In this document: piece after piece, positions 28,470 to 33,045 of the stretch
Position numbering within the stretch: position 1 is the first letter of the stretch
Layout of the letters: each line of letters starts with the position of its first letter
Source: Anaeromyxobacter sp. Fw109-5
GTDB taxonomy: Bacteria; Myxococcota; Myxococcia; Myxococcales; Anaeromyxobacteraceae
Reading direction: 5' to 3'
DNA: 64,000 nt
NCBI RefSeq assembly: GCF_000017505.1
Contig: NC_009675.1
Span: 1,798,001-1,862,000 of the forward strand
The notes under the pieces: model-generated
Database searches by the model: none
What the model saw: only the letters and a program-made list of their open reading frames with translations
What the model was told of the DNA's origin: nothing
Position numbers and translations under genes: made by a program

Positions 28470-28657
28470 GATCCCGGGTCGTTGCCTGCGCACGCCCGAC
28501 GCGCATCGCGCGAGGGGTTCCCGGGTGCGGCAAGTGGACGGTGGTCTCGGGGTCGATAGTGGAGTAGACGAGTCTGCTTTTGGCGCGCCTGGCCGGAACG
28601 CAGCCGGCCGGCACGGGACCGGCGCCTGCGCCCCGCAGGCGCGGGCAAGGAGCAGCG

Positions 28658-30016
28658 GTGGAAGGGCAGCAGGGCAGGGCGCAGCGGCCGCACGTCGTCA
28701 TCGTCGGGGGTGGGTTCGGCGGGATCTACGCGGCGAGGGGGCTCTCGCGCGCCCCTGTGCGGGTCACGCTCGTCGACAAGCGCAACCACCACCTCTTCCA
28801 GCCGCTCCTCTACCAGGTGGCCACGGCGGCGCTGAACCCCGGCGACATCGCCGAGCCCATCCGCCACGTGCTGTCGCGCCAGAGGAACGCGCGCGTGCTG
28901 ATGGCCGAGGCGGCGGCGGTCGAGCCGGACGCGAGGCGGCTGCGCCTCGGCAACGGGCTCGCGCTCGACTACGACTACCTCGTCATCGCGGCCGGCGCGA
29001 CGCACTCCTACTTCGGCCACGACGAGTGGGCGCGGTTCGCGCCGGGGCTCAAGACGCTGGAGGACGCGGAGGAGATCCGCCGGCGGGTGCTCACCGCGTT
29101 CGAGCGGGCCGAGGCGGACCCGGATCGGCAGCGGCGCGAGGCGCTCCTCACCTTCGTGGTGGTCGGCGGCGGCCCCACCGGAGTCGAGCTCGCCGGCGCC
29201 CTCGCCGAGATCGCCCGGTTCACGATCCCGCGGGATTTCCGCACCGTCTCCACCGAGCGCGCGCGCGTCATCCTCGTCGAGGGCGCGGAGCGGATCCTGC
29301 CGGCGCTCCCGCCCGAGCTCTCCGCTGCGGCGCAGCGCGATCTCGAGCGGCTGGGGGTGCACGTCTGGACCGGCAAGCGCGTCACGGGCGTCGACCCGCG
29401 CGGCGTGCAGATCGGGGAGGAGCGGGTCGCCGCTCGGACGGTGCTGTGGGCCGCCGGCGTGGCGGGCGCGCCGATCGCGGGGACCCTGGGCGTCCCGCTG
29501 GACGCCGCCGGGCGCGTGGTGGTGAACGACGATCTCACCGTTCCCGGCCGCGAGGAGATCTACGTCGTCGGCGATCTCGCGTCCGCGCGGAAGAAGGACG
29601 GCACGCCCATCCCCGGGGTCGCGCCCGCGGCGATCCAGCAGGGGAAGCACGCCGCGAGGAACCTCGTCGCGACGCTCGCGGGCAGGCCGCGCAGGCCCTT
29701 CTCCTACTTCGACAAGGGCGTCATGGCGACGGTCGGCCGCGGGCGCGCGGTCGCCGGGTTCTGGCGCCTGCGCATGACCGGGCTGCTCGCCTGGTTCGCC
29801 TGGCTCTTCATCCACATCTGGTTCCTCATCGACTTCCGGAACCGGGCCGCGGTCCTGTTCCAGTGGGTGTGGCACTACCTCACGTTCAAGCGCGGCACGC
29901 GGCTCATCCTCGAGACCCCCGAGGAGGAGCGCTTCCGGGCCGTGGCCGGGATGGCGCCGCCGGACGTGGACGCGTGGCCGCCGAACGAGAGCGACGCCGA
30001 CCGGCCCGAGACGTAG
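28658..30016 (+). CDS. Type II NADH:quinone oxidoreductase-like flavoprotein
   Basis: A 452-residue two-dinucleotide-domain flavoprotein. The FAD site is VVIVGGGFGGIYAARGL (residues 12-28), and KRNHHLFQPLLYQVA is the NDH-2 signature following it. The NAD(H) site is FVVVGGGPTGVELAGALAEIA. The second FAD motif is IYVVGDLAS. Near the C-terminus, LLAWFAWLFIHIWFLIDFRNR is the membrane-binding segment typical of NDH-2. It should oxidise NADH and reduce membrane quinone without pumping protons. GTG 28658 has AAGGAG; a longer frame to 28580 is low complexity. Confidence 0.92.
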   Translation: MEGQQGRAQRPHVVIVGGGFGGIYAARGLSRAPVRVTLVDKRNHHLFQPLLYQVATAALNPGDIAEPIRHVLSRQRNARVLMAEAAAVEPDARRLRLGNGLALDYDYLVIAAGATHSYFGHDEWARFAPGLKTLEDAEEIRRRVLTAFERAEADPDRQRREALLTFVVVGGGPTGVELAGALAEIARFTIPRDFRTVSTERARVILVEGAERILPALPPELSAAAQRDLERLGVHVWTGKRVTGVDPRGVQIGEERVAARTVLWAAGVAGAPIAGTLGVPLDAAGRVVVNDDLTVPGREEIYVVGDLASARKKDGTPIPGVAPAAIQQGKHAARNLVATLAGRPRRPFSYFDKGVMATVGRGRAVAGFWRLRMTGLLAWFAWLFIHIWFLIDFRNRAAVLFQWVWHYLTFKRGTRLILETPEEERFRAVAGMAPPDVDAWPPNESDADRPET

Positions 30017-30090: not shown

Positions 30091-30119
30091 TTGGGCCCCG
30101 GAGCCCTGCCGGGTTAGAA
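30091..30119 (+). promoter_or_regulatory. Candidate promoter for a near-leaderless transcript
   Basis: TTGGGC (30091-30096) and TTAGAA (30114-30119) are spaced by 17 bases. The -10 box ends nine bases before the ATG at 30129, so the transcript would have almost no 5' leader, and no ribosome binding site is visible before that ATG. Both facts fit leaderless initiation. Confidence 0.5.
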
Positions 30120-30128
30120 CCCCGCCCC

Positions 30129-31748
30129 ATGTCGGAGCGGAGCGGAGACGAGCGGGCGGGCCTGAGCGGCGAGGAGGTGGCGATCGCGCTCCGCGTGCTC
30201 GCCCGCGTCGCGGCGGACCGGACGGTGCTCGCGGGCGTGGACGCAGAGACCCGGACGACGCTCCAGAAGCTCGCCGGCGAGGTGGCCCGGCCCGATCTCA
30301 AGCAGCGCAAGAAGCTCCAGCGGGCCCTCCTCCGCGACGAGCGCGTGCAGCGCAGGGCGCGCGACGAGGCCCTTCGCAAGGAGACGGGCATCCAGCAGCT
30401 CCGCGAGGCGCCGGTGTTCTCGACCCCGCTGCCCGAGCTGCCCCGCCCCGGGGCAGATGCGTCCGGCTGGTGGCCGCGGCTCGGCGACGGCAGGGCCGCG
30501 CCGCCCCCGCCCGACGGCGCCGCGGCCGGAGCGGAGCCCGCGGACGGGCCGGTCCTCTCCGAGCCTCGCAAGTGCTACGTCTGCAAGGCGCCGTACGACC
30601 GGCTCCACCGCTTCTACGATCAGCTGTGCCGCGCCTGCGGCGACGAGAACTACGCACGCCGAGCGGCGGCCGTGGACCTCCGCGGGCGCGTCGCCCTGGT
30701 CACCGGCGCGCGGGTGAAGATCGGCTACCAGGCCGCGATCCTGCTGCTGAGGGCGGGGTGCACCGTCGTCGCCTGCACGCGCTTCCCGCGCGACGCGGCC
30801 GCGCGCTACGCCCGCGAGCCCGACTTCGACGCGTGGAAGGATCGCCTCCGGATCCACGGCATCGACCTGCGCCACACCCCCAGCGTCGAGCTGCTCGCGC
30901 AGCGGCTGGCGGCGACGCTCCCGAGGCTCGACTTCCAGATCCACAACGCCTGCCAGACCGTGCGGCGGCCCCCGGGGTTCTACGCCCACCTGCTCGAGCG
31001 GGAGGAGGCCCCGCTCTCCGCGCTGCCCGAGGGGGAGCGCGCGCTCGTGCGCGAGCACGAGGAGCTCAAGGCGGCGCTGGCCGACCACCGGACCGCGGCG
31101 GGCGTCACGCGCGCGGCGCTCCTCTCCCAGGCGACGAGCGAGGCGGACCTGCTCCTCCCCGGCAGGAGCGCGCTGGAGCTGTTCCCGCGCGGCGTGCTCG
31201 ACGCGGACCTCCAGCAGGTGGATCTCCGCGCGCACAACTCGTGGCGGCTCGCGCTGCACGAGGTGCCGACGCTGGAGCTGCTCGAGGTGCTCCTCGTGAA
31301 CGCGACCGCGCCGTTCGTCATGACGGCGCGCCTCAAGCCCCTCATGCTCCGCGATCCCACCCCCCCGCCCGGCACCGGCACGAGCGGCGACCCCGCGAAG
31401 CACGTCGTGCTGGTCTCCGCCATGGAGGGGCAGTTCTACCGGGAGCACAAGACCGACAAGCACCCGCACACGAACATGGCGAAGGCGGCCCTGAACATGA
31501 TCGTGCGGACGAGCGCGAGCGACTACGCGCGCGACGGGATCCACCTCAACGCGGTGGACACGGGCTGGGTCACGGACGAGGACCCGGCCCACCTCGCCGC
31601 GCGGAAGGCCGAGGAGCACGCCTTCTCGCCGCCGCTCGACGTGGTGGACGGCGCGGCGCGGATCGTCGCGCCGATCTTCGAAGGGTTCCGCTCCGGCCGC
31701 CACCCGGCGGGCCTGTTCTTCAAGGACTACCGCCCGACGCCCTGGTGA
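30129..31748 (+). CDS. Zinc-ribbon-containing SDR-like protein lacking the catalytic Tyr
   Basis: A 539-residue protein. Residues 1-100 are charged and helical. A Cys-x2-Cys-x14-Cys-x2-Cys cluster (KCYVC ... LCRACGDENY, about residues 148-172) forms a zinc ribbon or knuckle. From residue 182 it has a short-chain dehydrogenase fold (GRVALVTGARVKIGYQAA) with a modified Gly-rich loop. LLVNATAPFVM is the NNAG-like region, and VLVSAMEGQF holds the active-site Ser. The usual YxxxK reads TNMAK, so the catalytic Tyr position is Thr, after an inserted basic stretch. Activity may be altered or lost. It overlaps the convergent NnrS-like gene by 22 bases. Confidence 0.85.
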   Translation: MSERSGDERAGLSGEEVAIALRVLARVAADRTVLAGVDAETRTTLQKLAGEVARPDLKQRKKLQRALLRDERVQRRARDEALRKETGIQQLREAPVFSTPLPELPRPGADASGWWPRLGDGRAAPPPPDGAAAGAEPADGPVLSEPRKCYVCKAPYDRLHRFYDQLCRACGDENYARRAAAVDLRGRVALVTGARVKIGYQAAILLLRAGCTVVACTRFPRDAAARYAREPDFDAWKDRLRIHGIDLRHTPSVELLAQRLAATLPRLDFQIHNACQTVRRPPGFYAHLLEREEAPLSALPEGERALVREHEELKAALADHRTAAGVTRAALLSQATSEADLLLPGRSALELFPRGVLDADLQQVDLRAHNSWRLALHEVPTLELLEVLLVNATAPFVMTARLKPLMLRDPTPPPGTGTSGDPAKHVVLVSAMEGQFYREHKTDKHPHTNMAKAALNMIVRTSASDYARDGIHLNAVDTGWVTDEDPAHLAARKAEEHAFSPPLDVVDGAARIVAPIFEGFRSGRHPAGLFFKDYRPTPW

Positions 31749-32902
31749 GCGGGGCGGACGAGCGCCGCCCACGCGAAGAACGCGGCGACGAACGCCATCC
31801 CCGCGACGCCGAGCCAGAAGGGGATGCGTGCGCGATCGAGCGCGGCGAGCAGGCGCGCGCCGAACGCGAGCGCGAGGAGGGTGGCGACCGTGGCCGCCCT
31901 CCAGGGGCTCTCCTGGAGTGGCGGCGCGCGGCCGCCGCGGGAGAGGACCACGTGCGCGGCGATCGCCAGCGTGAGGAGCGTGAACCCTCCGACGAACACG
32001 ACGTGGAGCGCGGCGGTGCGCAGGCTCGGGGCGAGCGCGGCGAGCCAGTAGCCCAGCGGCACCAGCCAGGCGGCGAGCCAGACCAGCCGCCGCGGGAACC
32101 CGGGGAGCGGCGGCGCGCGGCGGAGCCCCGCCGCGAGGGCGAGCGCGCCGGTGGCGGCGATCGCGCGCAGCGACATCCCGAGCCTCGCGTCGAGCAGGGC
32201 CTCGATCGGGAAGGACGCGAAGAACGCCAGCGCCGCGATCCCGTGGAGCACGGGCGCCCGGCGAGCACGGCCCGGCTCCGGGGCGCGCTCGCTCGCGCCG
32301 TCCCCGCCGCGCGTGAGCCCGGGGAGCAGGCTCCCTCCCACCCCGAGCACCAGCCCCGTCACGAAGCCCTGCGCGAGGAGGGCCCTCCCGAGATTCCAGG
32401 CCGCCGGGGCGCTGGACGCCGCGACGAGCGGCGCCACCGCGGAGAGCAGCGCGCCCCCTGCGCCGGCGAGGATGGACAGGGGCACCCATACGAACGCCGC
32501 GGGGAAGGGCGGCCGCGCGGCCGCGCCGGTGCGACGGATCGTGAAGCGGAGCACGACCGCGGTGAGCACGAGCCAGAGCCCGTGGGCGAGCGCGGCCCGG
32601 CCCACCCAGGCGCTCGCCACGCACGCGGTCGGGAGCGCCAGCGCGGCGCCCATCTCCCAGGGGCCGGGGGCGGGCGTGCCCGTCCGGCGCGGGACGAAGG
32701 TGAAGAGGATGCCGATCAGGAAGCAGCTCAGGAACCCGTGGATCTGCGCGAGCGGGTGGAACAGCCCGAGCGCGCCTCCACCCGTCCCGCGGGAGACGAA
32801 CGGCAGGACGGCCGCGATCGCCAGCCCCGCGCCCAGCGAGAACAACGCCCGGTACGGCTCGCGGCGCCAGGCGGGGGCTGCGAGGTGGGGCGCGCTGGCC
32901 AT
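31727..32902 (-). CDS. NnrS-family heme/copper membrane protein
   Basis: A 391-residue protein with about 12 hydrophobic helices and the NnrS opening pattern EPYRALFSLGAGLAIAA, then FHPLAQIHGFLSCFLIGILF with conserved His residues. It continues TGLVLGVGGSLLPGLTRG and LHVVFVGGFTLLTLAIAAHVVL. NnrS proteins are membrane proteins linked to nitric-oxide resistance and denitrification regulons. No nitrite or NO reductase gene is nearby. ATG 32902 places the first conserved motif properly; the upstream frame extension is basic and rejected. The 3' ends of this gene and the SDR-like gene overlap. Confidence 0.87.
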   Translation of the reverse strand: MASAPHLAAPAWRREPYRALFSLGAGLAIAAVLPFVSRGTGGGALGLFHPLAQIHGFLSCFLIGILFTFVPRRTGTPAPGPWEMGAALALPTACVASAWVGRAALAHGLWLVLTAVVLRFTIRRTGAAARPPFPAAFVWVPLSILAGAGGALLSAVAPLVAASSAPAAWNLGRALLAQGFVTGLVLGVGGSLLPGLTRGGDGASERAPEPGRARRAPVLHGIAALAFFASFPIEALLDARLGMSLRAIAATGALALAAGLRRAPPLPGFPRRLVWLAAWLVPLGYWLAALAPSLRTAALHVVFVGGFTLLTLAIAAHVVLSRGGRAPPLQESPWRAATVATLLALAFGARLLAALDRARIPFWLGVAGMAFVAAFFAWAALVRPAHQGVGR

Positions 32903-33045
32903 CCCGGGGATGTAGCGCGCCCGTCGCCCGAGGCGGCGCCCGGGAGGGACGGACCGGGGCCGCAAACCCAGTCCCGTCGAATCCGTCGTGGCCCGACGGC
33001 CACGCGGATCCGACGGGCGGCGCGGCTCGCCGCGGACGCAGGGGG

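Follow-up and report, generated by a model that had tools for sequence, protein, structure and literature searches.

Members of the SDR superfamily are usually predicted to act on a carbonyl on the strength of their Ser-Tyr-Lys triad, and it is the Ser-Tyr pair that normally polarises and protonates that carbonyl. The stretch from the Ser to the Tyr is 13 residues long in classical SDRs. The 2,4-dienoyl-CoA reductases (DECR) and the peroxisomal DCR also lack the usual Tyr, and we know of no finger or large insertion in either of them. PMC9260719 gives the divergent enoyl reductases FabI and InhA the motif Yx2Mx3K, in which the Tyr stands seven residues ahead of the Lys. It also places F149 at the canonical Ser position of InhA and Tyr there in many FabIs, describes the InhA Tyr as an electrophilic catalyst rather than a proton donor, and gives the FabV enoyl reductases the spacing Yx8K.

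This work will focus on a gene of Anaeromyxobacter sp. Fw109-5 (genome of 5.28 Mb, one contig) found in a window of 64,000 nucleotides, by which we mean the whole stretch of DNA that was analysed. Going by alignment, two of the four usual SDR catalytic residues are absent from its product and from every relative examined. We favor, with a probability of roughly 0.4, the reading that the protein is an NADP(H)-dependent SDR-fold reductase with a rebuilt active site, in which His445 is the likely catalytic group and the substrate is an activated C=C or C=N bond. The argument makes use of the following features of the window.

30114 to 30119, plus strand: TTAGAA, a possible -10 element that ends 9 bases upstream of the ATG (from the sequence and a comparison with seven relatives)
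30129 to 31748, plus strand: coding sequence of the SDR-fold protein with an N-terminal helical region and a Cys4 finger, 539 aa (from the open reading frame, full-length relatives and an AF2 model of mean pLDDT 83)
30168 to 30407, plus strand: N-terminal helical region, residues 14-93, as predicted by the model, without a clear solved fold match
30552 to 30665, plus strand: Cys4 finger, residues 142-179 (C149, C152, C167, C170), the Cys present in 159/159 rows and the predicted secondary structure treble-clef-like
30702 to 30725, plus strand: nucleotide-binding loop TGARVKIG, residues 192-199, with R195 and K197 invariant and K197 replacing the middle Gly
30780 to 30788, plus strand: R218-F-P after the second strand, R218 and F219 in 159/159 rows, a candidate site for the 2'-phosphate of NADP
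30969 to 31268, plus strand: insertion (281-380, about 100 residues) that separates the NNA(C) strand from the Asn391 helix, seen as an hhalign gap against canonical SDRs
31299 to 31301, plus strand: Asn391, the catalytic-tetrad Asn, kept in 159/159 rows and aligned with the canonical Asn by hhalign
31419 to 31421, plus strand: Ala431 where the catalytic Ser is expected from hhalign and family-profile alignments, invariant in 159/159 rows
31461 to 31484, plus strand: H445-P-H-T448-N-M-A-K452, with Thr at the Tyr of YxxxK, the Lys kept, and His at the FabI-type Tyr spacing

The start of the reading frame is the first ATG, GTG or TTG past the upstream stop codon, and the 80 relatives kept from a contig scan align from residue 1-43 of the protein through its last residue. 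The closest among the matches listed in a named collection is from Anaeromyxobacter sp. PSR-1 (locus L001), at 79% identity. The protein begins with the helical region, continues with the Cys-x2-Cys-x14-Cys-x2-Cys finger and ends with a predicted SDR fold that contains the insertion. When the model of residues 1-186, finger included, was searched against solved folds the best Z was 2.4 among 119 aligned chains.

The assignment of the fold seems sound. Pfam recognizes two SDR segments, one at residues 187-277 and the other at 377-486, and PF00106 scores 47.9 bits against a cut-off of 26.6. The AF2 model, for which 54 rows were aligned (53 distinct), has a mean pLDDT of 83 and a pTM of 0.84, and its best solved match is 4z0t (Z 21.6, 227 residues, 2.6 A). 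Together the Pfam score and the model match place the protein in the SDR superfamily, and they bear out the first-pass annotation, which had put an SDR fold with insertions behind a Cys4 module. The 50 solved SDRs listed match the model with Z scores of 20.4-21.6 across 223-251 residues. The longest stretches among these 50 belong to DECR (1w6u, 251; 1w73, 247) and to peroxisomal DCR (4fc6, 247), but the identity is 13-19% and the Z scores are tied with those of ordinary SDRs. The protein also resembles PHROG 3142 (E 6.2e-58, best stretch at residues 346-525), which is a profile of relatives whose name, 'FabG-like 3-oxoacyl-ACP reductase', is annotation only.

What the protein shares with classical SDRs such as FabG, tropinone reductase and 4z0t is a predicted Rossmann-type fold over residues 182-539 with a TGxxxxxG start, the NA after the fourth strand, Asn391 and Lys452. 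It differs from them in having Ala431 and Thr448 for the tetrad Ser and Tyr, a Lys for the middle Gly of the loop, the insertion of about 100 residues, and the finger and helical region in front. The loop reads TGxRxKxG, invariant over the 159 rows except for the Thr (155 rows), so it departs from the classical TGxxxGxG. This Lys197 was overlooked in the first reading of the sequence. By the general rules for SDRs, the cofactor side presumably binds NADP through two residues of the glycine loop, R195 and K197, and through R218, which follows the second strand; we take R218 to be the residue that holds the 2'-phosphate.

It is important to realize how the relatives were gathered. The conservation set has 159 locus rows, 134 of a close type and 25 of a distant type, and 142 of them are distinct (117 close, 25 distant). 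The contig scan returned at least 565 relatives among 594 pattern matches. Peptides that included KCYVCKAP and MAKAALNM seeded it, and this biases it to members having these motifs; the whole-genome searches used no motif seeding. Over the 159 rows 65 positions are invariant. These include the four finger Cys, R195, K197, R218, N273, N391 and A431, as well as E433, K441, H445, P446, T448, N449, K452, D477 and W480. Since the finger cysteines and HP[HN]TN[MA][AS]K are found in every row of two subfamilies, the motifs are not there by chance. To judge from this pattern the gene is not a decayed copy, and the family is under strong constraint.

The first-pass annotation had read the YxxxK of this protein as TNMAK, and the Thr, Asn and Lys of this motif are kept in every row. 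Thr448 stands opposite the Tyr in all three phmmer alignments that were printed, in the hhalign comparison with canonical SDRs of related genomes, and by a gapless count back from the Lys. The family profile run against the PDB puts Thr448 there in one of two printed alignments; in the second (3rkr), a gap of one residue brings His447 to that place. The change goes further than this, since the catalytic Ser is lost as well, which the annotation overlooked, and so the loss was understated. It is Ala431 and not Ser430 that falls opposite the Ser in hhalign and in both family-profile alignments (N-I-S-S-x-A-G against N-V-S-A-M-E-G). The tetrad in this family thus has its Asn (N391) and its Lys (K452) and lacks its Ser (A431) and its Tyr (T448), each in 159/159 rows. 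As a loose control we took eight canonical SDR loci of related genomes; seven yielded a frame containing the glycine motif, and all seven had YxxxK at least 120 residues past it. The stretch from Ala431 to Thr448 is 17 residues, and the mean pLDDT of the model is only 53 across residues 431-440 and 68 across 441-450; both points count against the reading that we favor.

Could another Tyr restore ordinary SDR chemistry? The annotation had said that a model with some other active-site Tyr would overturn it, and conservation gives this no clear support. No Tyr within the SDR domain is invariant. The best is Tyr534 near the C-terminus, present in 154 of 159 rows; the other five have Phe and are all among the 25 distant rows. 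The obvious candidate was Tyr437 in the active-site loop, 11 residues ahead of Thr448, which we had taken as a possible stand-in acid by analogy with DECR. We rejected it, since the position has Tyr in 104 of the 134 close rows and in none of the 25 distant ones (104 of 159 in all). Tyr285 is found in 149 rows. The finger does better, with Tyr150 in all 159 rows and Tyr163 in 158, and one can picture the finger folding over the active site to present Tyr150 (C149-Y150-V-C152), with Tyr534 as the next candidate. This would require an active site shared between domains, and we hold it to be decidedly unlikely.

A second way to keep classical carbonyl reduction is to let Thr448, together with Ser430, Lys441 or His447, serve as the direct acid or as an anchor for water. 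Conservation is kind to this idea: Thr448 and Lys441 are in every row, Ser430, one residue from the Ser position, is in 158, and His447, which one alignment sets opposite the Tyr, is in 155. However, His447 is Asn in the remaining four rows and the Ser position itself is Ala431. The side chain of Thr is also shorter and far less acidic than that of Tyr. We consider this explanation unlikely.

We believe the reductase with a rebuilt active site accounts best for these losses. NADP would be gripped by R195 and K197 of the TGxRxKxG loop, by R218 past the second strand and by Lys452. Ala431 and Thr448 would replace the Ser-Tyr pair while Asn391 is kept. The invariant His445, at H-x6-K, would be the most likely catalytic group and would act by polarising. 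Instead of a simple ketone, the protein would reduce a conjugated C=C (or C=N) bond, or else a substrate with a similar activation. The Cys4 finger and the long insertion would serve as a lid on the substrate side or as an interaction surface. The predicted fold, the two losses, the conservation and the spread of the family are what the analysis shows; the NADP preference, the role of His445, the type of reaction, and the metal binding and role of the finger are what we infer.

The reason for favoring a C=C or C=N reductase is the spacing known from FabI and InhA: His445 is seven residues ahead of Lys452, Thr448 falls at the place of the Met, and Ala431 at the place of the Ser. As PMC9260719 describes them, FabI and InhA resemble this protein in having a possible catalytic group seven residues ahead of the Lys, a replaced canonical Ser, and a residue other than Tyr at the canonical Tyr position. 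The differences from that description are also plain, with His for Tyr, Thr for Met, the insertion and the finger, so Yx2Mx3K is absent here and we do not claim membership in that group. Because FabV has Yx8K according to the same source, the H-x6-K spacing is not diagnostic alone. His445 would be at the enoyl-reductase Tyr site by its spacing in the sequence alone. The solved enoyl reductase 3oic scored no better by the family profile than other SDRs, and no FabI-type entry was among the 50 structural matches listed, which is not evidence of absence. Nor does conservation single out His445, to judge from the alignment, since nearly the whole HPxTN block is equally invariant. The acting group could instead be K441, E433, T448, H447 or Tyr150 of the finger, and Ser430 might substitute for the missing catalytic Ser.

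The finger itself deserves some attention. The module CYVC-x14-CRAC, which the first reading had noticed, covers residues 149-170, and its two Cx2C knuckles are in 159/159 rows. That reading called it a zinc ribbon. The two knuckles agree with this, but in two models the strands at 142-148 and 155-158 are followed by a helix that starts from 168 at the second knuckle. The order strand-strand-helix is that of a treble clef rather than a zinc ribbon, and the module is probably treble-clef-like by its predicted structure. The cysteines suggest that it binds a metal. No Pfam family matched the finger of the window's protein above its cut-off, the 24 finger segments scanned gave weak matches to 23 Pfam families (best E 0.0021), and the best solved chain had an E of 0.097.

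A finger and a helical region ahead of a fold that has lost two of its four tetrad residues in all 159 rows also suit a quite different explanation. The protein may be a non-catalytic regulator that senses NADP(H), with the SDR fold binding the cofactor and the finger contacting a partner or nucleic acid. The failure to find a conserved operon, in 84 loci and in a further set of 23, is in keeping with this. However, the invariance of H445, T448, N449, K452, E433 and K441 exceeds what cofactor binding would appear to need, and the lack of a Pfam match above cut-off for the window's finger does not help either. Retained catalysis can be argued for because many of the invariant residues are polar and lie in segments expected to form the active and cofactor sites. 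The first-pass annotation had offered a nucleotide-binding regulator or a dehydrogenase with a changed mechanism. The second half is the better one given the strict conservation of the site in 142 distinct sequences, and we consider the regulator less likely.

The neighboring genes name no pathway for the family in the loci we compared. Upstream is a gene for a pyridine nucleotide-disulphide oxidoreductase (28580-30016), whose match to the NDH-2 C-terminal model is below the cut-off. Downstream and convergent is an NnrS-family gene (31727-32965, minus strand; PF05940, E 6.2e-33), the longest frame of which overlaps the 3' end of the SDR-fold gene by 22 bases. In the 84 loci (80 plus 4 from plasmids, with flanks of at most 5-6 kb and some shorter) no cluster occurs in more than five loci besides the gene itself and frames that overlap it. 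In the 23 loci (19 newly fetched plus 4 from plasmids) the gene aside, no cluster occurs in more than six. A defence role was considered and set aside as PADLOC gave no hit.

The gene had also been described as apparently leaderless, with a promoter ending nine bases upstream. TTAGAA is indeed placed in this way, and it recurs in two of the seven relatives compared (L082 and L083). Four others (L084, L001, L087 and L086) have TATGGA at an equal distance from the ATG, and one (L088) has neither there. No purine-rich ribosome site is evident by eye upstream of the window's ATG. A scan for sigma-70 consensus promoters found no site. Leaderless transcription is plausible from these letters, and the recurrence across relatives lends it some support.

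The family is patchy over several bacterial phyla. In searches that scored no more than 5 to 10 first-look candidates per genome, so that misses are possible, it was found in 79 of 146 genomes of Myxococcota (E up to 1e-20), 18 of 198 Actinomycetota (13 of the 18 with the distant type), 3 of 145 Verrucomicrobiota and 2 of 299 Pseudomonadota; each of the last three counts includes the genome at the centre of its search. The 41 closest genomes include 25 with a match of some kind (E up to 0.001) but 18 with a family-type match of over 420 bits, and one genome of this set from the same genus (G007) has no family match. Seven genomes of Myxococcota (G138, G153, G130, G124, G140, G144 and G147; loci L135 to L141) have a distant-type copy. 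Four of them (G138, G153, G130 and G144) have a close-type copy besides, and the finger cysteines and HPxTN are retained in either type.

A tree of the family carries nine phylum labels and needs 19 changes where the least possible is 8, with 66 of its 145 rows unlabelled. The excess fits transfer, but it would also fit paralogy and mislabelled bins. Two sister rows in this tree, L013 and L015, carry the metagenome-bin labels Akkermansia muciniphila and Klebsiella pneumoniae, and at least one of these labels is probably wrong. Plasmids rarely carry the gene (4 of 72,556 records have a relative), and two of these are annotated 'SDR family NAD(P)-dependent oxidoreductase'. A tblastn search with the protein found no match in 50,697 phage records, and in IMG/VR one relative was found among 36 pattern matches. 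That contig (L170, 1-1296 and 4019-5221) has the relative at its end, 2.7 kb from an integrase-like gene. The relative keeps HPHTNMAK and has Asn at the position of Tyr437; from its placement it may be host DNA that borders on a prophage. A phage origin for the family, suggested by the PHROG profile hit, was rejected given the empty phage search and this one possibly host locus.

Literature searches (for the motif HPHTNMAK, for an SDR with a zinc ribbon or treble clef, and for pseudoenzymes, the broader results being judged by titles and the openings of abstracts) found no published function for this finger-SDR family. It is tempting to see here a new catalytic class of the SDR fold, made up of NADPH reductases with a His (HPxTNxxK) where enoyl reductases have their Tyr, no Ser-Tyr pair, a metal finger and a thin spread over bacterial phyla. 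We offer this as a tentative proposal that may well prove wrong. Since the family stays constrained with two of the usual residues gone, the annotation 'SDR family NAD(P)-dependent oxidoreductase' may conceal a different reaction in the several hundred relatives found. The family is a testable case of a fold changing its chemistry, and His445 is a clear target for mutation.
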